Positions 1-19,282 of a DNA stretch of 21,600 bases are shown piece after piece. Positions within the stretch are counted from its first letter, which is position 1. Each line of letters opens with the position of its first letter. Position numbers and translations under genes: made by a program. The stretch is from a virus: the IMG/VR virus record IMGVR_UViG_3300033571_009946, positions 1 to 21,600 of that record. One strand, given 5' to 3'. The notes below the pieces were generated by a model that was given only the letters and a program-made list of their open reading frames with translations, was not told the DNA's origin and ran no database searches.

Positions 1-3000
1 ACCTTGCTGACTTCAGCAAGGTATTTTAACCCGCCTCTGTTTTGTGTGTAGCCCATACTGCCAATTGCATTTTCACCATTGTCTTCGGTATCTTTTTTTC
101 TATCTTCTTCACTAGCGTATACATAAACTACTCCACCAGTATGAATTAAATTTCCATCTAAAGTTCGAGTAACTTCTTCATAATGCTTTAAAAATACTTT
201 TTTGCCATCTTTAGTTTCATATTTTGCATTAGTTAATTTTTCTTGGACTTTTCTTTGCAGACTTCGTTCTTGTGCTAAGTATTCTTCGTAAGTTATTTCT
301 TTATCTAGATATTTAATAAACTGGTCGTCTAAAGCAGCAGACTTTCCTTGAACGGTTTTTTCTTTGACCGAAGACTTTTCATCAATAGTAATTCTTTCTA
401 AGACTTCTTTAGATTTACTACTCTTTCCGTTGATAATATCTTCAGGAGTGATGTCTGGCAAAGTGTCGACAGAAGAAATTGGTGCTGGAGACATAACCGA
501 TGTGGCAAATGCCTCTCCCTTGCTAGTCAAATTGTAGGAATGGTAGAGAGGTTGTTCGGAGTGTCTGCGGGCAAACTCTAACAGTGCCGTCGCTATTCCT
601 TTACGTCTCCAATTTGGAGAAACTTCTACATAACCTACTGTAGAAAAAGGTTTGCTTAAATCGTAGTTCTCTTTACCAAACCAAGCAGGTAGTTCATCTT
701 CAGACCACTCGTCTATTCCTTGAGATTCTTTATATCTGTTCTTTCTTACTGTCCCATAACTGATAGTTCCCACATCAGTTCCAAATTCATCAGAAACATC
801 AACTTGACCAGATACTTTTTTCCAACCTAACCCAGTATCAAGCCTATCTTCTCTAAAATATAGGTGCCAATCATTTCCATCTTCATCAGTGTAAATTCCA
901 CGTGCGTATTTAGTTTCTATGTCAGCGTCGTAGTTGGCTATATTTTGGTAGTTGTCTTCGATTCGGCTAGCAATTTCTCTAGACTTCAAACTCTTTGGGG
1001 TGTATGTTGAAAGGTCTTCGCTAGCGTCAACAAGACCGACGCTTGCTCTGTGAACTAGGTTGGTTGAATTGTCAGATGGATTAACAACTCTACCTAGTTT
1101 TACTTGCTTGTCTGCCAACGGGAAATCGGCGTCTTTCCCATCTAGGGCAAATCCTAAAACAAAAGCATTAGATTCGTCACCAAACAACGCTTGCTCCGCT
1201 GTTATCTCGCCTAGTAAGTATGCTTGCTGTACTACAGGATTAGTTATGTCGTGAGTTCCGTTACCAGTCATTCTCTCTTGTGCTGTGGTAAATACTTCAT
1301 AAGAGGCAAGTGGATGAAGTGCACCATAAATTCTTCCAGTGTAGTTACCCCTAAACATGTCAGCCAGAGTAGGTTCGTCTGGTGGACCCTCTGGGTCATT
1401 TCTTGTATAGGCAGGTACAGGAGCACGAACCAATCTTGGCTCGGAGCCACTTCTATCAAAGTTTTTCTCAGAAACGTGTAGCCACTCTTGCTCTCTAAGT
1501 TCTGGTATGGCTGACTCAATTACGTGACCAATTTCGTGGGTAGATGTCTCCTCGTAAGGCAACATTCCCCTACCGTCGTTGTTGTTAGGACCTATCCTAA
1601 CTATCAAATCTCCAGCATTTTCTCCGTCCATCAAAATATCGAAGAAACCTCTGGCACTACCTTTGTTTTCGTGAACCTCGTTGTCTAATTGAATTCTTAT
1701 CTTGCCAGTCGGTGTAGTAGCAGCAAGTGCTTTAATTCTTTCAATCTGCCACTTAGGGTATCTTCTTAGTGCAGCCTGAGTAGCCTCAATTGCTGCCTTC
1801 TTTGCTGATTCAGAAAAACTCTGCCTAACCTCAACCGTTCTACCGTTTTGATTTTCAGTTAGGGTTTCGTCAATAACAAATATGTCTAAGCCGTCTCCGT
1901 CATAGAATTCAACACCATTCTCTTCCATAAACTTTCTGTATTCTTCGGCAGAAATTATGGCAAAAGAGTCCTCAAGTTTAGTCTGTGCTTTTTCTAATTC
2001 TTTGTTTTCTCTTTGAAGTCTGACTGCTTCGCTGTGCAAGTCTTTTAGTGCTTGATTTTTAGAATTAAGAATTTTTTGAACAATTTCTGCAATGCTTAAA
2101 TACTCTTCACGTTTCTTCCTCAACTCAGAATCAACAAGTTTGTCAAAAGCCTCTGCATCGTTTTTATCGATTCTTAAAAGACCAAGGGAAAGTTTACGTT
2201 GTAAACTTTTTTCTACTTCTTTTCTTCTCTCGTCATACTCCTCGTTCCACTTCTGAATCGCATACTCACGAAGTGTGGCAATAATTTCATTTTTCCTAGC
2301 GATGTTCTGGTTAATCCTCACAGAACCACCAACTAATCTGTCTAAGGCATCTTCACCATTTTCTGCCTTAAATCTAGTGACAACTCTTTTTTGTACTTCT
2401 TTATCTTTTTCAGTAGCCCTATCTAGCCACTCACGATACTCTTTAGCCTTTTGCTCGTCAGGAATAACGTCGTGCCCTGAAATAATTCTGGTAGTTTTTG
2501 AACCCCTAGGTTTTATTTCAAGTTGTCTTCTACCTAACCCAAAATCGCTAGTTTCAAGAACAGGCGGCGGCGACTGCCTCTTAGTGTCAGGTGTACTAGG
2601 CTCAGGTAATTCAGTCTCCGCTCTATCTGGCGGTGGCGTCGACTGCAAAGGTGGACTTGCAGACTCGGAAACTTTAGGTGGGTTACCCTTCCTACCGACT
2701 TCTCCCTGCACCTGCCTAGCGGGGGTAGGTTCTGCATCTGGAGAAGTTGCACCTAGAGTTTGACGAGTGACACCAATGTGGTCGTTGTACTCGTTAGCAA
2801 TTCTTAGTGCGTCTTCATAATCTAAATCAACTACAACAGTCTTCAACTCGATAGGTTTACCGCTAGACATTTGAGCCAGCAAAGCGGATGCCCATCTGTG
2901 GTGACCATCAATTACATAACCGTCACGAGTAACGTAAAGAACTTGGTCATCCATTCCAAACTTTTTACGAAGTTCTGGGTCTAGCCAAGAAGTCATAATC

Positions 3001-6000
3001 AGACCAACGTTACCCATGTCCATCTCAGCCTGAATAGGAGTCAACTGGTCTGGAGTCATAATTCTTGACTCAAACTTAATTCCAAGATTTGTTAGAGCAG
3101 CCTCAAAGTCTGCTTGGTCTTCTGGAGTACCAAGTTGTGGCATCTTTCCACGCTCGGCACCTAAGTTGTTGTTTAGGTAGTTGCTAGTTCCCTTGATTCT
3201 CATGTTCGTCAAGTCAACGCCCATGTTTCTGTAAGTTCTTTGTAGGAACTTCATTTCTGAATCAGTTAGTGGCTCGCCGTTCTTGGCAAGAATAAAATCA
3301 CGTAGAGCCTTAGCACGTTCTTCGTTTAATGCAGCGGGGTTAATCGTACGTCTTAGTCGGTTGACTTGACGCTGAGGCAAACCAGCAAGTGCACTACTCA
3401 CTTCACGAGCAAGAGCAGAACGACCAATTGCATTTGCATCTTGCCCAATAAACTTTCTGTCTTCCATTGCAATTCTTACTGCTTCGATTGCAACTTCTTG
3501 GTCTACTTCAATATAACCACCATCAAAAAGCACTTCATAGGCTTCCTGAGGGTCTGTAATATCTTTTCTGACTTCATCTTCACTAACTTCGTTAGCGTCC
3601 CAGAAACCGTCAACGTGGGTAGGTTTTACTCTAGGAGTTGGGTCTGCTTCTTCTTTGTACTCAGGTTTAAACTCTACGAGTTTTCCGTTTCCATCTAGAA
3701 CTCGGTTGTTCTCTAAGTCACGAACTCTACGTCGCTCAGGAGTTCTGTCAGCATCAGTTAATTGTTCGTCTGGAACTCTGATTCCGTTTTCATCAACGTA
3801 CCACTGCAACAAAGATGGGTCTAATTTCTTTGCAACAGTTTTTCCGTCTTTATCTTTTAGTTTTCCACCTTCAATTGTGTAACCTTCAGGAGAAATTATT
3901 TTTCCATTGCTGTCGGTATAAACTTCAGAAACGTCTGGAACTGGGAAAGTTTCTTCTGGTAGTTCGTCTACTTTAGTTTTCTTTGGGCTAAGTGGTGCAA
4001 CTGGAGAGAGAATCTTTTCTTCTTCAGACCTACTTGGAGTCCTTAAATTATTTTCTTCAGTCAAACGCTCGGCAGCATCTTTCAATGCTTCCTGCTTAGA
4101 GTTAGACGTAATAGTCTTAGATGGTTTTAAGTTTTCTTGGTCTTTAGCGTCGTCATAAATCTCGGTGACATACTGACCTCTGTAGTCCTGAGTAATTCTT
4201 GCCCTAGGAGCGTTAGGGTCTTTTGGAGTGTAGAGCAATCTGCCTTTATCGTCTTCTACAAAGTCAGATGGTAAAACAACGTCTTTTTCATCAACATAAT
4301 CAAGACCAGCCTCTTTTTTAAACTTCTTGCTTTCTGGTCTTCTTGGGTTCTCTCCTCTAGGGTTTGAGAGTTCACTAGCCTCAGCCATAGACTGAACGTC
4401 TTCCCAGTCCTGAGCGTAGCCAATTACGTCTGGAGTTGCGTTTGTCTCCCAAGGTGCTGGCTGGCGAGTAATCTCGAAGATTGGCTCGTCTGGGTCAATA
4501 GTTGAAGTTCCGCTAGTGAAGCCACGAACTTCGGCACCGTCGGCAACTTCTTTCTCCATGTCAGCCTTAACAGCATCGTGCTTGTTTGGCTGGAATCTTC
4601 TAATGGTGTAGCCACCCTCACCCTTAGCGTTGTTCTTAGTGCGGTAAGTAGAGAATGGAGTTTTATCGTCTGACGGATTAACTTGCTCAAAGTTATCGGA
4701 AGGGAAGTCTCCGTCTGGAACGTCTCCCCACATCTTGCGTTCTTTTTTGTCGTCAAGTTTTTTGTAAGCCTTTTTATCTACACGCTGTGCAGCAGCCTGT
4801 ACATCTCCCCAACTTTGGTAGTAACCAACAAATACGTTTTCATCGCTATCCCACTTTTCCTTGTCTGGAGTAGTTAGTGGGTTAGTGAATAACTCGTAGA
4901 CAGGATAGTTAGGGTCTATCTCTCCATCTTTGCCTAGACCTTTTACTTCTACACTTCCATCGGCAATACGCTCTTGATAATTAGGAATTGAATCAACGCC
5001 ATCATACTGACGTAGAACGTAGCCATCGTTAGAAATAAATTGCTTGGAGTAAGGTAAATCCACTCCGTCTTGCTTTGTGTCAACTGACCAGCCGTAAGGA
5101 GCGTCAATCTTTTTTAGGTCTGCAACGTTTATTGCGTAATCATTTGCATAGGTTGCTGACTTAGGTCTTCCGATAGGGAAAACTTTGCCACCCAAGTTTT
5201 TAAGGAAAGCCTTAATACCAGCAACGTTCTTAGTACCCATTCGGTAAATACCAGTACCGAGTATCGGGTCGTCAATGAACTCAACGTCAAAAGTATCGCT
5301 AGATGGGTCAGAGCCAATGAACCTACCAACTACCGAATGAATAAACCCCTTGAGGTCTCGGATGAAGGCTCTAGCACCTCCACCCATCCAAGCAAAGCGA
5401 CCTAAGCGGTCACGGCGTTGAAGTTTAGCCCTCGCCGAGCGTTCTAAAAAAGAGTTCCCCCCAGCAAAGGGATTGATTGCAGCGGTAACTGCAACCACCA
5501 CATCCTTAGGGACATCCTTTGAATCTGCTGACTCTAAGCGGTTCACCAAATAGTTGTACTCAACGCTACCCGGCGAGGTTAGGTAGATTGACGCAACTAG
5601 AGGTTTGAACTCTTCGCTTATTCTTGGGTCAGCAGACATCCACTTACTCTTTTCAAGATTTCTACTTCTAGTAGAAACCTCGGCAGGGTTGGTGGAGAGA
5701 GGGTGTCCGATTGGTAGTAGGTCAGTATGACCGCCAGCAACTACAGGCGTGTGCCCATTTATCGCCATGTTAAGAAAGTCTTCCAACTCTCTTATTGCGG
5801 TGAATACTCTTTTTTGCACATCTGATGCCCCTAGGGTTTTGTACAGCGAACGCTCTACAACTTCCATAGCGGTTCTCTTGTGAACATACCGTGCTAGGTC
5901 GACATCCTTATTTGCCGAAGCAAGAATGGTGTCAATCATCTCCGAAAGAGTTTGGTCAGGTGCGTAAATGTCACCGCCAATCGCTACGGCATGAACAGGC

Positions 6001-6050
6001 TGATTAACTAACCAGTTAATCGGGTTCTGTTCTTTATCTAGGTCTGACAA
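1..6050 (-). CDS. Giant polyvalent-type protein: ParB-like, coiled coil, HExxH peptidase, GNAT domain(s); partial at window edge
   Basis: One frame stays open from a TTG at 6050 to the window edge, giving at least 2016 residues; the C-terminus is outside. AAGGA six bases before the TTG supports the start, nine bases after the Dps stop. An N-terminal region (1-330) carries a RDRLGRFAWMGGG motif near 211-228, of a kind often seen in phage head proteins. A duplicated module lies at about 341-430 and 478-555. A ParB/sulfiredoxin-like domain spans about 1000-1080, with DGHHRW at 1048-1053 as the signature. A Pro/Ser-rich linker and a charged coiled coil (about 1190-1360) follow. A metallopeptidase motif HEIGH sits at 1505-1509 with a possible third ligand, Glu1585, in YEVFTTAQE. 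A GNAT acetyltransferase follows (VGYVEVSP, then RRKGIA at 1815-1820), and a second GNAT fold may begin at the edge. The composition fits polyvalent proteins co-injected with phage DNA. Domain calls are by eye; substrates are unknown. Confidence 0.85.
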   Translation of the reverse strand, partial: MSDLDKEQNPINWLVNQPVHAVAIGGDIYAPDQTLSEMIDTILASANKDVDLARYVHKRTAMEVVERSLYKTLGASDVQKRVFTAIRELEDFLNMAINGHTPVVAGGHTDLLPIGHPLSTNPAEVSTRSRNLEKSKWMSADPRISEEFKPLVASIYLTSPGSVEYNYLVNRLESADSKDVPKDVVVAVTAAINPFAGGNSFLERSARAKLQRRDRLGRFAWMGGGARAFIRDLKGFIHSVVGRFIGSDPSSDTFDVEFIDDPILGTGIYRMGTKNVAGIKAFLKNLGGKVFPIGRPKSATYANDYAINVADLKKIDAPYGWSVDTKQDGVDLPYSKQFISNDGYVLRQYDGVDSIPNYQERIADGSVEVKGLGKDGEIDPNYPVYELFTNPLTTPDKEKWDSDENVFVGYYQSWGDVQAAAQRVDKKAYKKLDDKKERKMWGDVPDGDFPSDNFEQVNPSDDKTPFSTYRTKNNAKGEGGYTIRRFQPNKHDAVKADMEKEVADGAEVRGFTSGTSTIDPDEPIFEITRQPAPWETNATPDVIGYAQDWEDVQSMAEASELSNPRGENPRRPESKKFKKEAGLDYVDEKDVVLPSDFVEDDKGRLLYTPKDPNAPRARITQDYRGQYVTEIYDDAKDQENLKPSKTITSNSKQEALKDAAERLTEENNLRTPSRSEEEKILSPVAPLSPKKTKVDELPEETFPVPDVSEVYTDSNGKIISPEGYTIEGGKLKDKDGKTVAKKLDPSLLQWYVDENGIRVPDEQLTDADRTPERRRVRDLENNRVLDGNGKLVEFKPEYKEEADPTPRVKPTHVDGFWDANEVSEDEVRKDITDPQEAYEVLFDGGYIEVDQEVAIEAVRIAMEDRKFIGQDANAIGRSALAREVSSALAGLPQRQVNRLRRTINPAALNEERAKALRDFILAKNGEPLTDSEMKFLQRTYRNMGVDLTNMRIKGTSNYLNNNLGAERGKMPQLGTPEDQADFEAALTNLGIKFESRIMTPDQLTPIQAEMDMGNVGLIMTSWLDPELRKKFGMDDQVLYVTRDGYVIDGHHRWASALLAQMSSGKPIELKTVVVDLDYEDALRIANEYNDHIGVTRQTLGATSPDAEPTPARQVQGEVGRKGNPPKVSESASPPLQSTPPPDRAETELPEPSTPDTKRQSPPPVLETSDFGLGRRQLEIKPRGSKTTRIISGHDVIPDEQKAKEYREWLDRATEKDKEVQKRVVTRFKAENGEDALDRLVGGSVRINQNIARKNEIIATLREYAIQKWNEEYDERRKEVEKSLQRKLSLGLLRIDKNDAEAFDKLVDSELRKKREEYLSIAEIVQKILNSKNQALKDLHSEAVRLQRENKELEKAQTKLEDSFAIISAEEYRKFMEENGVEFYDGDGLDIFVIDETLTENQNGRTVEVRQSFSESAKKAAIEATQAALRRYPKWQIERIKALAATTPTGKIRIQLDNEVHENKGSARGFFDILMDGENAGDLIVRIGPNNNDGRGMLPYEETSTHEIGHVIESAIPELREQEWLHVSEKNFDRSGSEPRLVRAPVPAYTRNDPEGPPDEPTLADMFRGNYTGRIYGALHPLASYEVFTTAQERMTGNGTHDITNPVVQQAYLLGEITAEQALFGDESNAFVLGFALDGKDADFPLADKQVKLGRVVNPSDNSTNLVHRASVGLVDASEDLSTYTPKSLKSREIASRIEDNYQNIANYDADIETKYARGIYTDEDGNDWHLYFREDRLDTGLGWKKVSGQVDVSDEFGTDVGTISYGTVRKNRYKESQGIDEWSEDELPAWFGKENYDLSKPFSTVGYVEVSPNWRRKGIATALLEFARRHSEQPLYHSYNLTSKGEAFATSVMSPAPISSVDTLPDITPEDIINGKSSKSKEVLERITIDEKSSVKEKTVQGKSAALDDQFIKYLDKEITYEEYLAQERSLQRKVQEKLTNAKYETKDGKKVFLKHYEEVTRTLDGNLIHTGGVVYVYASEEDRKKDTEDNGENAIGSMGYTQNRGGLKYLAEVSK

Positions 6051-6059
6051 TTTGGTTCC

Positions 6060-6572
6060 TTACATTAAATTAGGTACAACGACTGTGGAGTCAGCACCAA
6101 TTGTGGTGCCAAGTTGCCAGTTCCACTTCTGGTGTGCGTCGATACGCTCGGCAATAAAGTTTGCAATTCCCTGCTCACGGCAAGCGTCTGCTAAATCAAA
6201 CGCTTCCATCAGATAGGAAAGAATCTTCTTGTTTGCATCGTACAAAGAAGCAGACATAACTAGATGGTCATAACCAACAGGTCTAGTCTCGATGCAACTT
6301 AGGCTAAGGAAGTCTTCAAGTAGGAACGGTGCATCGAATCCCAATTTGCGTAGGCTCTCTGCAATTGGGTCAACTGCTCCCTCTGCATCTTCGTAAATCT
6401 CTCCGAAGAAGTCATGGAACTGAGTAAACTCTGCTCCACGCACGTTCCAGTGGTACCCCTGTGCCAAAAACTTCAGCACAACTGTGTCAGACAACAGGCA
6501 CAGCAACTTGGATGCAAGAGCATCTTTACTATTGCCCTTGTCCATTTCAATTTTGATAATAGAGTCGTTCAA
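6060..6572 (-). CDS. Dps-like ferritin (DNA-protection / iron-storage family)
   Basis: The 170-residue protein has the Dps core: HWNVRG with His41, then His53 in FHDFFGEIYED, Asp68 and Glu72 in DPIAESLRKLG, and a final helix rich in Trp and Gln. Family members form 12-subunit shells that oxidise Fe(II) and may coat DNA. Two His ligands and the Asp/Glu pair are present, but the position of E. coli Dps Asp67 is Gly57, followed by Glu58, so ferroxidase activity may differ. The start is a TTG at 6572 with AGGAG five bases before it, eight bases after the portal stop. Placement between the portal and the giant polyvalent-type gene suggests late expression, and perhaps packaging in the virion (inference). 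There is no promoter between it and its neighbours. Confidence 0.9.
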   Translation of the reverse strand: MNDSIIKIEMDKGNSKDALASKLLCLLSDTVVLKFLAQGYHWNVRGAEFTQFHDFFGEIYEDAEGAVDPIAESLRKLGFDAPFLLEDFLSLSCIETRPVGYDHLVMSASLYDANKKILSYLMEAFDLADACREQGIANFIAERIDAHQKWNWQLGTTIGADSTVVVPNLM

Positions 6573-6580
6573 TTTATCTC

Positions 6581-8410
6581 CTAGATTTCAATCTTTGGTT
6601 CGGCTAATGCAGGAGGAGCCTGTTCAGCGGGTGGTTGATTAGTTGGTTGCTCTGTTGGAACGGGCGGAACCGCTTCCTGAGGAGCAGGTTGTTCTTCTGC
6701 TGGAGGAGCAGTAGGCTCTCCTGCTGGTGGCTGACCACCCTGAAGCATTTGTTCTACACCTTCTGGAACTGGTGCAGCGGAATTCTGTTGAGCGACTTCA
6801 CGAACCTTAGCCATAACATCTGGGGCAACAGCGTTAAGCATTGCTTCAGTAAGTTCAGGCGTGATGACACCCTTCTCAACTAGCAGACGTAGAGCCAACT
6901 CTGTTGGAGAAGGAGCCTCTGCTTCTGAGAATCCGTGAGTCTTACGCCAAGTCTCAAGGCTAATTGCCATCTTCTCAAAACCTGAGTCTGCATCCTGAGC
7001 ACGGTCGTTACGAGTAGCAACAGCGGTTGGGTCAAACCAAACAACAATGCGGTCTACTTCGTTCTGTGAGAATCCGTTAGCAAGTAGGTAAGGACGTAGA
7101 TAAACAACAGTTAGAGCATCAGCAATCAAAAGCATCAATGGCTCAATGTGAGCCTTGTAAAGTGACTCGTCAATCTGGACAGCGTTTGAGTACTTAACGT
7201 TGGCTAGACCAGTAACGATGTCCTTAGGGACGTCGATGCCTTGCATAATTCTTTCAAGCACACGGTCAGAACGCTCCGCAAGTGCAGGGTCGAACGAACG
7301 CTCAAACTTGAACTGCTTAATCTTGTCACCCAGTTCGGCAGGTCCTCTAATAATAAGTGGCACAACCGCAGACGCAGAATCTTCATCCTTAATCGGAGTG
7401 GTCATAGCGTCGATAAGTTGGTCTTCGAACTCGTCCTGTGCTTCTTCAGCAGTCGGTTCGGTAAAGACACCATCTGCATCATCGTAAGGATAGTTAGGGT
7501 CTGGATTAGCAGCAACGCTTAAACCATCTGGAAGATAAAGAGCACCAGCGTTGAGGCGAGAACGTGCAGTTGCACGGAAGGTGCGGTTTAGAAGTAAAAG
7601 TTCTGCACACAAGTCAAGAACACCACGAAGGCTTGAGTCTGCTTCTTCTGAATAACGTGGGTGTGCTTTCCAAATACGTCCGATGAACGCACCCTTTGGT
7701 AGAACAATTACACCTTGCTTGCTCGCTGCGTTTCCACCACTACGAAGTTCACGACGTGGAGAAATAACATAGTTACCTTTTCCATCCGTGTTCAACTCGT
7801 CGGTAGAGCGAATATCCCAAGACTCTGCAATTCCAGTACCAATACGTGGTGGAATCTGAGTTAGGTAGCACTCACCAGTAACTTGCAAGTTAAGTGCAGC
7901 ATCACGAAGAAGTCCAGCCTGACCGCCATACGCTGAGTCAAGTCGAGCCAAAGCACGTTCAGCAACTTCAATTAGACGTTCGTCTCCAGTCTCAGCGTTT
8001 CTGATTGGAGATGGTGCTTCAGATGGATTTGAAACAACTGCTGCATACAAACGAACACGGGACACAACGCTGGCAACTAGGTTAAAGGCGTACTTGATTT
8101 CACCGATAGCGTCATAGTATTCCCACGCTTCGTGTTGCCAAGTGCTGGACGCTGCAGCCCGACGTGCTTTAAAAAGTTCCGCTTCGCCTCGGTCTCCAAC
8201 TTTAATTTGGCTAGCAGCAGCGGTAAGTGGTCGTGGAATATCGTAAGAGGCTACTGGTGCACTATTAGGTTGAACGTTGAGGAAAACGGAGTTGGCTGGT
8301 AAACCACTAGGAGTGATTCTTGGAACTGATGCGGAGATACGACCACTCGACGTTACGCCATTATTTAATTTGCGTTTCGAGTTAGTCTGCTCTTTCTTAA
8401 AAACGCCCAA
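6581..8410 (-). CDS. Phage portal protein
   Basis: The 609-residue protein matches the length and build of actinophage portal proteins. The Trp-rich stretch STWQHEAWEYYDAIGEIKYA near 88-107 is followed by the helical and wing regions, and the IDVPKDIVTGLANVKYSNA segment resembles the conserved portal clip/stem area. A Pro/Glu/Gln/Ala-rich tail fills about the last 65 residues and is probably disordered. The portal forms the dodecameric ring at one capsid vertex through which the terminase drives DNA. The start is a TTG at 8410, chosen because AGGAG lies six bases upstream; no better ATG exists nearby. It follows the DUF1360 gene by 15 bases and precedes dps by 8, so these are cotranscribed. 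The family assignment is by overall resemblance and context, without a single catalytic motif. Confidence 0.88.
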   Translation of the reverse strand: MGVFKKEQTNSKRKLNNGVTSSGRISASVPRITPSGLPANSVFLNVQPNSAPVASYDIPRPLTAAASQIKVGDRGEAELFKARRAAASSTWQHEAWEYYDAIGEIKYAFNLVASVVSRVRLYAAVVSNPSEAPSPIRNAETGDERLIEVAERALARLDSAYGGQAGLLRDAALNLQVTGECYLTQIPPRIGTGIAESWDIRSTDELNTDGKGNYVISPRRELRSGGNAASKQGVIVLPKGAFIGRIWKAHPRYSEEADSSLRGVLDLCAELLLLNRTFRATARSRLNAGALYLPDGLSVAANPDPNYPYDDADGVFTEPTAEEAQDEFEDQLIDAMTTPIKDEDSASAVVPLIIRGPAELGDKIKQFKFERSFDPALAERSDRVLERIMQGIDVPKDIVTGLANVKYSNAVQIDESLYKAHIEPLMLLIADALTVVYLRPYLLANGFSQNEVDRIVVWFDPTAVATRNDRAQDADSGFEKMAISLETWRKTHGFSEAEAPSPTELALRLLVEKGVITPELTEAMLNAVAPDVMAKVREVAQQNSAAPVPEGVEQMLQGGQPPAGEPTAPPAEEQPAPQEAVPPVPTEQPTNQPPAEQAPPALAEPKIEI

Positions 8411-9080: not shown

Positions 9081-9590
9081 TTATTTTCCTAACCTACGAG
9101 CCATTGCACGGAAGGTTACGCCCGATGCTCGTGCTAATTCGGCGATTGTTACGCCTTGAGAGTGTAAAAACGTCGCTAATTCGGTCATTTCCGAGTTTGC
9201 GGAGCCTTGAATCGAGTTTAAGCCCATTCCAGAGCGGTAATTTCTGGCTAAGGGGGCTAAATAGCGTAAACGTTGGGCATTTTCGGCTGAAATTCCCGGA
9301 GATAGGGGTTTTTTGCGGATATAGCCTGTTTTTTGGGTAAAATTCGACGGAAACGGGAGTTTTTGGTCAATTTTGCTTCGAAAATCGCCATTTTTGACCC
9401 AATATTGCACTGTAGAACGTCGAAAAGGTGGCGAAAATGCGTTTCCAATGGCTTGAAGTGCCCATCCAGCCTCAAAAAGTTGCCTAGCACGGCAATAAAG
9501 TTGCTGTTTTGACCCACTCAACGAACGGAGGAGGGTAATTTCTGATTCTGGGAGCGATTCTTCTCTCGCATAACGTCGACGTTCTTCCAT
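9081..9590 (-). CDS. Two-HTH DNA-binding protein, apparent paralogue of the small-terminase candidate
   Basis: The 169-residue basic protein has a helix-turn-helix-like segment near 38-66 (AGWALQAIGNAF, then STVQYWVKNG) and another at the C-terminus, 146-168 (GVTIAELARASGVTFRAMARRL). The same order and spacing, with local similarity (LAPLARNYRS against LQPMAQQVRS), occur in the protein encoded at 12138-12692 next to the large terminase. That suggests paralogues. The ATG at 9590 is preferred over an in-frame TTG at 9623 because an extended -10, TGCTAAAGT, ends seven bases before it, which would give a leaderless mRNA; there is no Shine-Dalgarno. It heads the operon running into the portal. It may bind DNA in packaging or regulate late genes; which one is unclear. 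Confidence 0.75.
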   Translation of the reverse strand: MEERRRYAREESLPESEITLLRSLSGSKQQLYCRARQLFEAGWALQAIGNAFSPPFRRSTVQYWVKNGDFRSKIDQKLPFPSNFTQKTGYIRKKPLSPGISAENAQRLRYLAPLARNYRSGMGLNSIQGSANSEMTELATFLHSQGVTIAELARASGVTFRAMARRLGK

Positions 9591-9597
9591 AACGTAT

Positions 9598-9606
9598 ACT
9601 TTAGCA
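9598..9606 (-). promoter_or_regulatory. Extended -10 promoter for the 9590 gene (leaderless)
   Basis: On the minus strand TGC is followed directly by TAAAGT (9603-9598). Seven bases later comes the ATG at 9590, so transcription would begin at or next to the start codon. No good -35 is visible at 16-18 bases. The GTGCTA core is shared with five promoters in the accessory region. Confidence 0.4.
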
Positions 9607-9940
9607 CGTTCTGTACAAGACAATGGGCGTCGAAGGCTTCTGTACTGACGATTAAAAATGATACATTAACGATTTTTGCCTTTGGCGTATCAGACGGGAG
9701 TCCTAGTCCGGGAGACCTTTCGTAATCGTTTCGTGATGTTCAAAAATAAACGGGAACAGCATTTCATTCGCAACCAAACAATTACTCATTTGTAGCCTAA
9801 TGATTACTTATTTACATCTCCAGTCAATGATTGCTATAAAAAATAATCTAGATAGCAACTAATCTGAACACCCTTACAACTTTTATGCTAAAACTTATCA
9901 ACTTGACACTAAAAAACAATTCTTATTACTAATCAAACAT

Positions 9941-10158: not shown

Positions 10159-10743
10159 ATGAATACTAACAATGATAGAGAGACTAAGACAATGACAACT
10201 AATGAACCAGATTACAGAGAGTCAGTTGCTAGAGACCCATTCGCAGGGGATGACATCAACTTGCCTTTATGGTCAGAGATTCTACCTAACCTATGGCAAG
10301 GTGGCACTTACGATAATGACAGAGTTGGAGACCGCAGTTGTCAGTTAGACATACCCGCAATTACCCGCAGAGAGTTCGATAGTGTCTACACCTTTTACGC
10401 CTTCGCCAATCCAGTTGATTGGCAAGTAAAAGAATACCGCTATGGCTATTACGACTCTCCAGATACAGACTTCCCCGTATCGGAGTTCAAGCGTATTGTT
10501 GAGATGGCTCACGCTGATTGGAAGCGTGGAGAGAGAGTTCTAATTAGATGTCAAGCGGGACTGAATAGGTCAGGCATAATCACCGCTCTAGTGTTGATTC
10601 GAGATGGCTACTCACCGCTTGAAGCAATAGACCTAATGAGAGATACCAGACACCCTTATGTCTTATTCAATAAGCATTTCGAGAATTGGATTCTGAAGCA
10701 ACCAGTTGAATTTTGGCGAGAGAATCTAACTACCGAATTCTAA
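10159..10743 (+). CDS. Dual-specificity/tyrosine-phosphatase-like cysteine phosphatase
   Basis: The 194-residue protein carries the Cx5R phosphatase loop as CQAGLNRSG (Cys131, Arg137, Ser138), preceded by the strand RVLI. An N-terminal SEILPNLWQGGT matches the start of dual-specificity phosphatase domains, and Asp99, Asp102 or Asp104 in YYDSPDTDFP may be the general acid. The usual His before the Cys is replaced by Arg. These enzymes remove phosphate from Tyr/Ser/Thr or other phosphate monoesters through a phosphocysteine; the substrate here is unknown. It is the only plus-strand gene, has its own promoter, and ends tail-to-tail with the large terminase gene, overlapping it by 14 bases. That isolated setting resembles a moron (inference). 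The start is ATG 10159, apparently leaderless; ATG 10192 is the alternative. Confidence 0.88.
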   Translation: MNTNNDRETKTMTTNEPDYRESVARDPFAGDDINLPLWSEILPNLWQGGTYDNDRVGDRSCQLDIPAITRREFDSVYTFYAFANPVDWQVKEYRYGYYDSPDTDFPVSEFKRIVEMAHADWKRGERVLIRCQAGLNRSGIITALVLIRDGYSPLEAIDLMRDTRHPYVLFNKHFENWILKQPVEFWRENLTTEF

Positions 10744-12121
10744 AGAGACTACTTTTAGAGTCAGGTAATCTACGAGACCCCATTGACTTAGCGGTTATCT
10801 TACCGCCAGTAAATCCAGGGGGCGGCTTGATTAGTAGAGCAGTAAGAGCGTGGACTAAAGCGTCTACTCGGTCAGGCGACTTACCTTCACCTGGAACCCA
10901 CGAGACCATTTGAGATTCTAGGTCAGCAAGATAACCAATGTGGTGAACACGCCCTTGCTCATAACCTAACACCACAGGCTCGGCTCTAAGAGCCTTGCCA
11001 TACTTCGAGTGGACTTCAAGCACCTTGATACTAGGGTCAATGGTGTTGATAGCATTTCTAACTAACGCACCACCTTGATTGACTTCGGCTACAACAGGAC
11101 AACCCCACTTGCGAGCCATAGCAACTACACGATTAGCCCAGACATCAGGCGACCCTAACACGCTAGCGTCTTCAAGCACCCACGCTTCCCGCTTATACAA
11201 GTCTCTCTCACCAGTTGAAGCAACTACAACAATTCCACATTCATCTCTAGGATTCTCGGCTACCGAAGGGTCTACACCAATTACTCTAAGTGGAGTGTTG
11301 AGTGGATAAGCAGATTGTCTATGATTCTCGATTAGTTCATCAGTCCATAAAGCACCTTCGACTGAATCTAACATCTCACCATAAAGTTCTTGTTGAGCAA
11401 GTCTAGTTCCAGCGTAGACACCTGTAATAGCGTCAAGGTAAGCAGTTGATAAGTTTCCAGAGTTGTCCATAGTTGAACCACGACTAATCACAACACGACC
11501 AGTATTTTTTGCTTCTTCTAATAATTTGTAAAGCAATGGAACACGCTTCGGAGTTGTAGTAATCATAATTTGTGGATTACGACCTAGACGAGTTCCAACA
11601 CGCAAGTTATCGAACGCAGTCATACCCGCCGCATCAGGTGTTTGTCTCCAAGCGGCGACCTCATCTCCCCAAGCGTGAGTGAATTGTGGACCACGCAATG
11701 AGTCAGGTTCATCAGCAGTAAAGCAAGTCGCAGTATTTCCGTTGGGCCAAGTTAGTCTTCGCTTCGAAGGTTCATACAATGGTCTCTCACTAGGTGGAGA
11801 CACATTCATAATTCCAGATTCACCTTCGACAATAACATCTCGAACATCCGCCGCTGTTCTAGCAACTAGAGCGAATCGTCTCTGTCCAGTATTAGTGTAT
11901 TTCGCTTGCTCACGAACCCACTCTGCCGCTGCCCTTGTCTTACCAGCACCACGACCAGCAAGATACATCCAAATTGCCCAATCACCTTCAGGTGCTTGCT
12001 GTTCAGGTCTACCCCAGACAGACCAATCCCACATAAGAGTATCGGGGTCGAACCCAGATAGGATAATCGCTCTCTCGTCATCAGGCAAGAGAGCGATTTG
12101 TTCCATAAGACTTTTAGCCAT
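10730..12121 (-). CDS. terL: Terminase large subunit
   Basis: From ATG 12121 the protein has 463 residues. The N-terminal ATPase shows Walker A GRGAGKT (56-62), Walker B ending in DE (Asp153, Glu154 in WGDEVAAW) and the coupling motif MITTTPKRV near 186-194. The C-terminal RNase H-like nuclease shows acidic residues at Asp284 (VIGVDPSVAEN), Glu346 (VVAEVNQGG) and Asp420 (DRVDALVHAL). The protein cuts concatemeric phage DNA and pumps it through the portal. The frame is open to an ATG at 12214, but that would overlap the upstream gene by 77 bases; ATG 12121 gives a gap of 16 bases and begins with a plausible MAKSLMEQIALLPDDE. Ribosome-binding signals are weak, so the start is moderately sure. 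Confidence 0.95.
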   Translation of the reverse strand: MAKSLMEQIALLPDDERAIILSGFDPDTLMWDWSVWGRPEQQAPEGDWAIWMYLAGRGAGKTRAAAEWVREQAKYTNTGQRRFALVARTAADVRDVIVEGESGIMNVSPPSERPLYEPSKRRLTWPNGNTATCFTADEPDSLRGPQFTHAWGDEVAAWRQTPDAAGMTAFDNLRVGTRLGRNPQIMITTTPKRVPLLYKLLEEAKNTGRVVISRGSTMDNSGNLSTAYLDAITGVYAGTRLAQQELYGEMLDSVEGALWTDELIENHRQSAYPLNTPLRVIGVDPSVAENPRDECGIVVVASTGERDLYKREAWVLEDASVLGSPDVWANRVVAMARKWGCPVVAEVNQGGALVRNAINTIDPSIKVLEVHSKYGKALRAEPVVLGYEQGRVHHIGYLADLESQMVSWVPGEGKSPDRVDALVHALTALLIKPPPGFTGGKITAKSMGSRRLPDSKSSLFRIR

Positions 12122-12137
12122 AGGTCTATTGTATAGA

Positions 12138-12692
12138 CTACAAAATGGCTCTATTCTTCGATTGAATCGGAGTGTAGACCCTACTTTGACCATTGTGGTC
12201 AGTCTTATAGCCATAGCGTGCTAGTCGGAATCGAATAGCAGAGTGAGACACACCTAGTCGCTTACCTAAGCGATAAAGTGGCACGCCTTCAACTTCGTGA
12301 GCGTGATTGAGCAGTCTCACATACTCTTCGGCTTCCGCTCTGAATCGCATAGCGTTAGAGCGAACCTGTTGAGCCATAGGTTGTAGTTCAAGCAAGCGAG
12401 CCAAGATTTCAGGTGAAGGCTCGACAAACTCTCGCTTTGCCTTTTCAGGATAAACAGGTGGTTCAGGAATAACATAAGAATCATCCAGTTCAATTGTTTG
12501 AGAGTGTTCTGAAACAATCTGTCTAGTTCTCTCTCTAGTGATTCCACATACTTCCGCAATGCTAGTTAGAGTCCATCCAGCGTTTTTGAGATTGACAATG
12601 TATTGGTTTCTTTCATCAACATCATTCACCTTCAAAAACTTATTTCTAACTTCATCAGGAAGATTTATTAGTTTCTTGATTTGTTTTGGCAT
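12138..12692 (-). CDS. Two-HTH DNA-binding protein, candidate terminase small subunit
   Basis: The 184-residue protein has two helix-turn-helix segments. The first is at 41-62 (LTSIAEVCGITRERTRQIV), resembling the sigma region 4 / Trp-repressor type. The second is at 137-160 (VPLYRLGKRLGVSHSAIRFR). A charged helical stretch rich in Arg and Glu lies between them. Its place directly upstream of the large terminase gene, 16 bases away, makes it the best small-terminase candidate, which would recognise the packaging site; that is inference from position and DNA-binding character. The protein at 9081-9590 shows the same arrangement. The start is ATG 12692, 11 bases after the upstream stop, with only a weak AGAAAGAA ribosome site. 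A transcription factor is the main alternative. Confidence 0.75.
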   Translation of the reverse strand: MPKQIKKLINLPDEVRNKFLKVNDVDERNQYIVNLKNAGWTLTSIAEVCGITRERTRQIVSEHSQTIELDDSYVIPEPPVYPEKAKREFVEPSPEILARLLELQPMAQQVRSNAMRFRAEAEEYVRLLNHAHEVEGVPLYRLGKRLGVSHSAIRFRLARYGYKTDHNGQSRVYTPIQSKNRAIL

Positions 12693-13107: not shown

Positions 13108-13291
13108 TTTTCTTTTCTCCAGTTTCTTTGTCTTTAGGTAAGACAACTCCAAGTAGAGTTATCGGTTCTTCATTCCAATCCAAGTCCAAGTCTTCATCTC
13201 GAAGTGGATTGACTTTGTTGCTAATAATTAGAGCAACCGCAATGATTCCAATGAAGAGCAGAGCGATTAGTCCTAGATTTACAATGTCCAT
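13094..13291 (-). CDS. Small single-pass membrane protein (65 aa)
   Basis: The protein starts MDIVNLGLIALLFIGIIAVA, a hydrophobic helix of about 20 residues. It continues with an acidic stretch (RDEDLDLDWNEEP), a short hydrophobic part and a lysine-rich end (KDKETGEKKNEKK). This suggests an N-terminal membrane anchor with a charged cytoplasmic tail. The ATG shares one base with the stop of the deacetylase-fold gene (TAATG), so the two are probably translationally coupled. It overlaps the next gene by 14 bases. No family is recognised. Confidence 0.72.
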   Translation of the reverse strand: MDIVNLGLIALLFIGIIAVALIISNKVNPLRDEDLDLDWNEEPITLLGVVLPKDKETGEKKNEKK

Positions 13292-14262
13292 TAGACAGCA
13301 ACTTTCTTAGTTCCGTTGTAGATGTCAGAGACAACATTCGCCCAGATTCTAGGCGTGTGTGTCTCCGCTTGATAACCACCAGCACCACCGATAAGCACTC
13401 GACCTTCGGAGTGGCGGTTAGCCAAGTCAGCGACAACCTTAGACGCATAGTGGTAGCCATCATAGGTGTATTTGAGACCCCAATACTCGCCTTCGTGTCC
13501 GTCAGCACCAGTTGCTAGCAGAATCACATCAGGTTTGTAAGAGTCAATCTTCTCGGCAATGTCGTCAATAGCCCAAGCAAATGCTTCATCACCTTCGCCC
13601 TGTTGAAGAGCGTAGTTGTAGATTTGTTTGTCTTCTATCTCATAAAGATAGTTGCCAGTCTCTCCACGAATCCAAGTGTCAGAGTGAGTTGGATAAATTC
13701 CGTGTCCGTGAATCGAGAAGGTTGGAATACCAGAGTTCTCCAGTAGATTCTGAACACCATCTCCAGCGTTCACATCCCAGTCAATGTAGACAGGTCTCAA
13801 CCCAGCCTTCTGAAACTCCAGAGTAGCCCAAGCGAAGTCATTGAATACGCAGAAGCCTTCAGACCATCCGTATTGAGCGTGGTGCTTAGCACCCTGTGGA
13901 TTGAAGCCCACCTGTATTTCTCCAGCAATCATCTTCTCGGTCAGTCTCGCAGTTCCAGCGAACATCTTTAGAGCAATCTCACCCATCTCTAACCTATGTC
14001 CATACCAATCGTGGCTAAGACCTTCGTCAAGCACTTCAGATACAAACTTAGGGGAGTGAATACTCTCTAGGCGTTCTCGGTCGCCAGAGTCCACTTCAGG
14101 CTCGATTACGACCACATTATCCGAACCCAGTTCAGAGACTAGGTAATCGGTAGCAATCTTCGCCCGAATAGGCTTAGTTGGATGTGAGCCATCTCCGCTT
14201 CCAAGTAGCCACTTCAGGTAATCATCGCCATAGGCTATGTGTAATTTTTCTTTATTTGTCAT
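13291..14262 (-). CDS. Histone-deacetylase-fold (HDAC/AcuC/APAH) protein with altered zinc ligand
   Basis: The 323-residue protein has the arginase/deacetylase family signatures in order: AKHHA (His127, His128), GFCVFNDFAWA, YIDWDVNAGDG (Asp161, Asp163), SIHGHG, TGADGHEG (Asp254) and GGAGGYQ (Tyr297). In active enzymes the zinc is held by Asp-His-Asp and Tyr assists catalysis on acetyl-lysine or acetylpolyamines. Here the two Asp ligands, the His pair and Tyr remain, but the DVHHGDG motif reads DVNAGDG, so Asn165 takes the place of the zinc-binding His and Ala166 the next His. Activity may be changed or lost. The gene has its own promoter, TTGACA-17-TAAACT, beside a conserved 24-bp element, and heads the operon that reaches the terminase genes. 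A phage function is unknown. Confidence 0.9.
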   Translation of the reverse strand: MTNKEKLHIAYGDDYLKWLLGSGDGSHPTKPIRAKIATDYLVSELGSDNVVVIEPEVDSGDRERLESIHSPKFVSEVLDEGLSHDWYGHRLEMGEIALKMFAGTARLTEKMIAGEIQVGFNPQGAKHHAQYGWSEGFCVFNDFAWATLEFQKAGLRPVYIDWDVNAGDGVQNLLENSGIPTFSIHGHGIYPTHSDTWIRGETGNYLYEIEDKQIYNYALQQGEGDEAFAWAIDDIAEKIDSYKPDVILLATGADGHEGEYWGLKYTYDGYHYASKVVADLANRHSEGRVLIGGAGGYQAETHTPRIWANVVSDIYNGTKKVAV

Positions 14263-18688: not shown

Positions 18689-19282
18689 TTATGGAGTTTC
18701 TAGAATCCGCACATAAACTATTCGACTATTTTGGAAATCAGTAATCGGTTGTATGTGAGTTCCACCGAAGCCACGATTGGCGTTTATGACCTTACCCTTA
18801 CCAATGTAGATGGCAGAGTGATAGAAGGACTTGTAGCCCTTGTAGCCGAAGACTACGACATCTCCGACCTTTAGGTCTTGCTTCTTTACTCTCTTGCCAG
18901 CGTAGGCTTGCTTAGTGGCAGAGTGTGGCAGTTCCCTACCAACTTGCTCGTAAGCCCATCTGACCATACCAGAGCAATCCCACCCATAAATAGAAGACCC
19001 TGAAAATACATAGGGGGTTCTACCTACTCGGTGAATTAGGCGGATAACTACTTTATTCAGTTTCTCCCTGTTTTGAACCAATCTCTTTTCGTAAATAACT
19101 CGCTTCTCTAAGAAAGTTAGTTCTCTCTTTTGAATCATAGTTAGAAACGAAATAGTTTTCGGTTCGGTTCGAGTTTCCACACTCTTTGTCTTTACTTCAT
19201 TTGATAACTGACTGGCACTTGCTGAAGATGTTGAACACCCACACAGCACTACTGCCAATGTTATTGTCAGCAACCATCTCAT
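18689..19282 (-). CDS. NlpC/P60 cell-wall peptidase with lipoprotein signal
   Basis: The 197-residue protein opens with MRWLLTITLAVVLCGCS, a lipoprotein signal peptide with lipobox LCGC and Cys16 for lipidation. A basic, helical linker (about 30-85) is followed by an NlpC/P60 domain: catalytic Cys103 in YGWDCSGMVRWAYE, His155 in YHSAIYIGKGK and a likely third polar residue, Asn167. Such enzymes cut D-Glu-diaminopimelate-type bonds in peptidoglycan stems. Lipid anchoring to the membrane surface is unusual for an endolysin and suggests a role at the host surface, such as wall remodelling or blocking superinfection (inference). GGTAGG lies seven bases before the ATG, and a terminator follows. 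The upstream frame start at 19391 is a shadow. Confidence 0.92.
   Translation of the reverse strand: MRWLLTITLAVVLCGCSTSSASASQLSNEVKTKSVETRTEPKTISFLTMIQKRELTFLEKRVIYEKRLVQNREKLNKVVIRLIHRVGRTPYVFSGSSIYGWDCSGMVRWAYEQVGRELPHSATKQAYAGKRVKKQDLKVGDVVVFGYKGYKSFYHSAIYIGKGKVINANRGFGGTHIQPITDFQNSRIVYVRILETP

Follow-up and report, generated by a model that had tools for sequence, protein, structure and literature searches.

A giant polyvalent protein gene behind the portal and Dps genes of a phage, with a conserved head section and exchangeable enzyme domains

A 21,600-nucleotide stretch of viral DNA (IMG/VR record IMGVR_UViG_3300033571_009946, positions 1 to 21,600; hereafter, the window), which is the complete virus record, was analysed. 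After the genes for the portal protein and a Dps/ferritin-like protein, its minus strand carries a giant gene whose product joins ParB-like, zincin-like and GNAT domains in one polypeptide. The first ca. 430 residues form a conserved head section, composed of modules A, B and C; more than 100 phage loci have giant genes with this head, placed after portal and Dps. We consider it likely that the gene codes for a giant virion-borne polyvalent protein, with the A/B part of its head loading the chain and exchangeable enzymes acting in the host early in infection.

The giant open reading frame (ORF) is open at the end of the contig; because the window is a complete record, the gene is cut by the contig end and not by a window edge. 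An earlier note, made from the sequence alone, had described one frame of at least 2016 residues, intact from a TTG start, that contains the motifs DGHHRW (residues 1048-1053), HEIGH (1505-1509) and RRKGIA (1815-1820); the length, the three positions and their location in a single frame proved exact. The TTG codon is preceded, 6-7 bases upstream, by AAGGA, and both signals are also present in the relatives L006, L162, L089, L088 and L047. The closest complete homologue is an intact gene of 4896 amino acids on L162, a 49-kb viral contig (positions 1197-15884). Its residues 4-1985 align with residues 1-1992 of the window protein with 54% identity, and the window therefore carries about 40% of the giant gene. 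Across 1933 aligned codons (57% amino-acid identity) the frame was unbroken, and no break was seen against the independent contigs. Differences between the two genes amounted to 0.34, 0.26 and 0.54 at codon positions 1, 2 and 3, respectively, which is the pattern of a protein-coding gene. We therefore conclude that the giant gene is intact apart from the contig end; a chance frame or a broken gene is ruled out by the alignments with relatives together with the codon-position pattern.

Domain calls were weak on the window protein alone and became firm through its relatives. In the case of GNAT, the window protein yielded E values of 0.003-0.005, under the Pfam cut-offs, while relatives with 5, 6 and 8 units exceeded them (2e-20, 2e-24 and 1.6e-31, respectively); the eight copies of L162 are in an intact gene. 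The R..G of the acetyl-CoA loop was invariant over 14 aligned GNAT units, and RRKGIA of the window protein agrees with the loop of motif A (R/Q-x-x-G-x-G/A). The window gene ends within a stretch that aligns to the second GNAT unit. A structure was predicted for residues 925-1900, and the GNAT stretch of the model had the tandem GNAT protein 2wpw as its top match (Z 7.2). Residues 1385-1641 (461-717 of the model) matched several zincins with modest scores (Z 5.8-6.3). The zincin matches would not stand without the peptidase motif. Each of the six members long enough to include the peptidase site has HE[ILF]GH, with HE.GH..E, and a glutamate helix further along the chain, YE[VI][FW]....E, is conserved in all five that extend to it; among the residues conserved in these five is E1585, a candidate downstream acidic zinc ligand. 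The ParB-like domain of the window protein matched phrog_2859 (1e-19), phrog_1033 (E 0.004) and, weakly, ParBc_2 (E 0.14). Its motif was kept in seven ORFs, and DG.H is common to named Pseudomonas, Vibrio and enterobacterial phages; the predicted model was of low confidence over this region. The coiled coil proposed in the earlier note corresponds to long helices at about residues 1199-1377 of the model. As GNAT and zincin folds were both matched, the structure prediction did not overturn the domain assignments read from the motifs, and the three identities have backing, GNAT and zincin from sequence and model and ParB from sequence.

To find relatives, the portal gene was used as an anchor; none emerged when viral contigs were scanned with just the window protein as the query. 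Profiles of module A and of module B each detected 136 loci. The sequence covered amounted to 656 kb on the upstream side of portal genes and 1,043 kb on the downstream side; of 159 occurrences of B, 158 lay downstream of the portal gene, and B and portal invariably shared a strand. The sole B-bearing ORF upstream of a portal gene, 735 amino acids long, is at L071 898-3102. Module A was also present in 116 of 162 B-bearing ORFs, 33 start with B, and 12 have B past residue 270; 112 of the 162 are at least 1000 amino acids long. Five late-B cases were inspected, L002, L003, L049, L063 and the L164 ORF; an annotation or profile match was available for L002, L003 and L164, and these were capsid-maturation/prohead-protease genes. 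The core motif of module B (RD..G.FA) recurs in the prohead-protease gene. Module B is also common to several giant ORFs, including the start of a second giant protein. The ParB cassette is part of the first giant in the window, whereas L010, L097 and L104 have it in their second giant, which is headed by B. A Dps gene was present in 90 loci, usually directly after the portal gene, and was fused to module A in 32. In one of these 32 fusions, L026 2747-4342, DUF5824, a Pfam model of unknown function, overlaps the A part (2.6e-7); DUF5824 was not seen in the A region of the window protein.

Modules A and B of the window protein had no match in Pfam, PHROGs or NCBIfam. In a Foldseek search with a model of the head, the B barrel had weak tudor/SH3-like matches, of which none reached E<=0.001, and module A received no assignment. 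No relative was found in 84,980 cellular genomes scanned with the B module, a single short pattern that makes this negative weak evidence. A search of open-licence papers revealed no description of the A/B/C head, and the giant-protein family and its head section appear to be undescribed.

Behind the constant head, the contents differ from phage to phage. Among 19 headed giants, a DnaQ-type exonuclease was present in seven, a UvrD helicase in five, GNAT in four, a DRAT-type ADP-ribosyltransferase in three and ArdC-N in two; DnaG primase, MPTase-PolyVal, NUDIX, WYL and an ADP-ribosyl exoenzyme-type domain were found once each. Such a pairing of a fixed head with interchangeable contents would be expected of a delivery system. 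Past the part shared with the window, the L162 protein has a domain matching a solved exported alarmone synthetase (8vx3, 2e-13) with an RYT signature, and L012 has a domain of the same kind (8vx3, 4e-11) with RYT and GxN (GIN). RYT and GxN are signatures reported for the MuF-linked (p)ppApp synthetases Apk2 (PMC12226406, PMC12691689). The giant gene of L162 is followed by a second giant (3540 amino acids), a small gene and the prohead-protease gene. The second giant (L164 912-11531, 3540 amino acids) has B at its start and a Zeta-toxin-type kinase near its end (5e-11); a HipA-like kinase domain was also discerned in it by eye. An ADP-ribosyltransferase read from the terminal residues of L006/L086 was supported neither by profiles nor by the PDB and was rejected. 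Very large headed ORFs were also noted in two further records, G007 (that of L037; 6023 amino acids, with at least three GNAT-like units, around C1:33794-35560) and G017 (that of L027; 4305 amino acids).

Phage polyvalent proteins combine disparate enzyme domains in one polypeptide, and ParB, zincin and GNAT are among their listed domain types, with P1 DdrB and N4 vRNAP as examples (Iyer et al. 2017, PMC5512222). In the window gene a single frame codes for domains of the GNAT, zincin-like and ParB-like types, and headed family members contain MPTase-PolyVal, ArdC-N, ART, DnaG, UvrD, DnaQ and GNAT. The gene context is that of late, virion genes: terminase, portal and Dps genes are upstream, as the earlier note had placed the latter two, and in L162 a prohead-protease gene is downstream. 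The polyvalent make-up proposed in that note fits the published definition, with disparate domains, a head-gene setting and a matching family repertoire, and the polyvalent reading of the giant gene is well supported. That the protein would be injected together with the DNA and act against host defences is our inference.

The gene itself, its position, its domains, the sharing of the head and the exchange of modules were observed; on these we base a scheme in which loading, cutting, ejection and activity are the conditional steps. During prohead assembly, the A/B head would dock on a head component, which could be the portal, the scaffold or the prohead-protease polypeptide, the last of which bears the same RD..G.FA motif. 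Docking would load the giant chain into the capsid. The chain may be cut, either by the zincin domain or, at the B motif, by the prohead protease. Whole or in pieces, it would then enter the host together with the DNA. There, during the first minutes of infection, host proteins would be acetylated by the GNAT units, while nucleic acids or nucleotides would be the substrates of the ParB-like domain and of others. The alarmone synthetase, the Zeta toxin and the varied contents of the 19 giants suggest the effector character of the cargo.

Several points weigh against this proposal. The fold scores of the GNAT and zincin stretches are both below Z 8, and the zincin domain was matched neither by Pfam nor by any sequence of the PDB or the phage collection. 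The loci with A, B and Dps are related and partly redundant, so that their counts describe a pattern and not independent events. Packaging, ejection and enzyme activity of the giant protein are predicted from sequence and model, and the host group is deduced from relatives of the portal protein. The loading role of A and B is suggested by their position and sharing, and both could be plain structural modules. Alternatively, the whole protein could be a purely structural component of the head interior (scaffold, core or minor capsid protein), with enzyme-like domains that are relics or serve head assembly; this would agree with the position among head genes and with a conserved head common to Dps and the prohead-protease gene. 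Catalytic motifs are, however, preserved in nearly all copies, the contents vary from phage to phage while the head is constant, and it is not obvious what an alarmone synthetase or a Zeta toxin would contribute to structure. We therefore regard a purely structural protein as unlikely.

Marginally less probable still is that the zincin domain is the key element of the protein, a peptidase that processes its own long chain, either in the head or once ejected, and so releases separate enzymes, as has been proposed for P1 DdrB. A zincin-like fold and motif do lie in the middle of the chain, and metallopeptidases are the most frequent polyvalent domain, with P1 DdrB being processed before packaging (PMC5512222). 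Yet autocleavage would be a prediction from motif and model, and the domain is restricted to the subgroup nearest the window, most headed giants having no relative of it. The chance that the gene is an artefact of assembly or annotation, a chance open frame or a chimeric fusion, is very small: unusual length, a non-ATG start and a contig end inside the gene might raise the suspicion, but the module order is the same in the independent contigs L006, L089 and L162, the TTG and the ribosome-binding site are kept, and substitutions are of the coding type. A virion-borne polyvalent protein therefore remains our preferred reading.

More tentatively, with the odds somewhat against it, A and B may be a virion-loading address, with A loading Dps and the giant protein, B loading one or two giant effector chains, and the B core motif in the prohead-protease polypeptide marking a docking or cleavage partner. 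If this joint proposal is true, ca. 25 kb of the genome codes for exchangeable effectors present in every particle, including an array of like acetyltransferases. The constant head and changing contents at one gene position in more than 100 loci bear on how polyvalent proteins reach phage heads. With a head module also on Dps, and its motif in the gene for the prohead protease, the loading-signal hypothesis can be put directly to the test in Microbacterium phages that are in culture. The contents also offer uncharacterised effectors of early infection, encoded by environmental phages, with up to eight related acetyltransferase units per chain.

Features of the giant gene and of its upstream neighbours in the window
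Feature	Position	Strand	Remarks
N-terminal ca. 40% of giant polyvalent protein gene	3..6050	-	2016 codons, cut by contig end
AAGGA ribosome-binding site before TTG start	6057..6061	-	overlaps Dps stop codon; kept in five relatives
Head module A	5508..5936	-	residues 39-181, helical; in relatives also fused to Dps or on preceding gene
Head module B	5202..5462	-	residues 197-283, motif GGNS..AR..RA.LQRRDR.GRFA.MGGG and small beta barrel
Module C copy 1	4776..5132	-	residues 307-425
Module C copy 2	4377..4709	-	residues 448-558
ParB-like nuclease domain	2742..3242	-	residues 937-1103, DGHHRW
Coiled-coil region	1911..2462	-	residues 1197-1380
Zincin-like metallopeptidase domain	1137..1913	-	residues 1380-1638
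HEIGH active-site motif	1524..1538	-	residues 1505-1509; candidate third zinc ligand E1585
GNAT acetyltransferase unit 1	489..899	-	residues 1718-1854, RRKGIATALL
Second GNAT unit, start only	3..228	-	ca. residues 1942-2016, contig end; inferred by alignment to L162 unit 2
Dps/ferritin-like protein gene	6060..6572	-	PF00210; usually adjoins portal gene; fused to module A in some loci
Portal protein gene	6581..8410	-	phrog_776, 1.7e-104; anchor for finding relatives
Terminase large subunit gene	10730..12214	-	Pfam and PHROGs match

Relatives of the portal protein belong to phages infecting Microbacterium, Arthrobacter, Gordonia and Mycobacterium, and the phage is probably a tailed phage of aquatic Actinobacteria. 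The late region of the window also contains a gene for a histone-deacetylase-family protein (13291-14262, minus strand; PF00850, 1.2e-40), and genes 55-83% identical to it were found in 5 of 19 related records. A pairing of this gene with GNAT arrays was considered and rejected, the five records being with and without GNAT units. A dual-specificity phosphatase-like gene (10159-10743, plus strand) is on the opposite strand, convergent with the terminase gene. The terminase gene is flanked by helix-turn-helix-like proteins (12138-12692 and 9081-9623, both minus strand), the latter without a solid family match. An NlpC/P60 hydrolase (18689-19282, minus strand) has an N-terminus that resembles a lipoprotein signal (LCGCS).

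The polyvalent proteins described in 2017 already included ParB, GNAT and zincin domains (PMC5512222). As in that class, the window gene is a late gene close to head genes, and its single polypeptide unites several enzyme domains unrelated to one another. Unlike the described proteins, it has an A/B/C head unmatched in any family library used and belongs to a family with a tandem array of up to eight like GNAT units (4896 amino acids in the intact relative), and its zincin domain falls outside the MPTase-PolyVal model of Pfam (PF18818, no match). The constant head-associated N-terminus and variable, potentially toxic part resemble those of MuF polymorphic toxins such as Apk2 (PMC12226406), as does the Apk2-type alarmone synthetase domain of the intact relatives L012 and L162; in contrast to MuF toxins, the window family has many domains in one chain, and no MuF model in Pfam or PHROGs matched the window protein at E 1. 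The earlier note knew of no description of this exact combination, which holds for the full layout and fails for the ParB-GNAT order, already present in Mycobacterium phage Blubba gp73. Gp73 and its cluster relatives are proteins of large actinophages in which a ParB-like part precedes a GNAT of the same type; gp73 differs in its length (504 amino acids), its single GNAT unit and the absence of an A/B head and a zincin domain, and its ParB part did not match the window's ParB model. In Pseudomonas phage LKA5 (Hollowayvirus), the same kind of ParB-like domain is part of a giant protein of more than 3600 amino acids, but the phage belongs to an unrelated group, its protein has no A/B head, and relatives are annotated as PLxRFG-domain or structural proteins. 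Closest in setting are the giant genes of DSL-LC01 (WJZ48510.1), a metagenome-assembled phage with Actinomycetia as predicted host (PMC10611076), and of Microbacterium phage Cece (gp68). Their contents behind the head are different from those of the window protein and they are annotated only as "hypothetical protein"; like the window gene, both follow the portal gene, DSL-LC01 with an A/B head and Cece with a B head.
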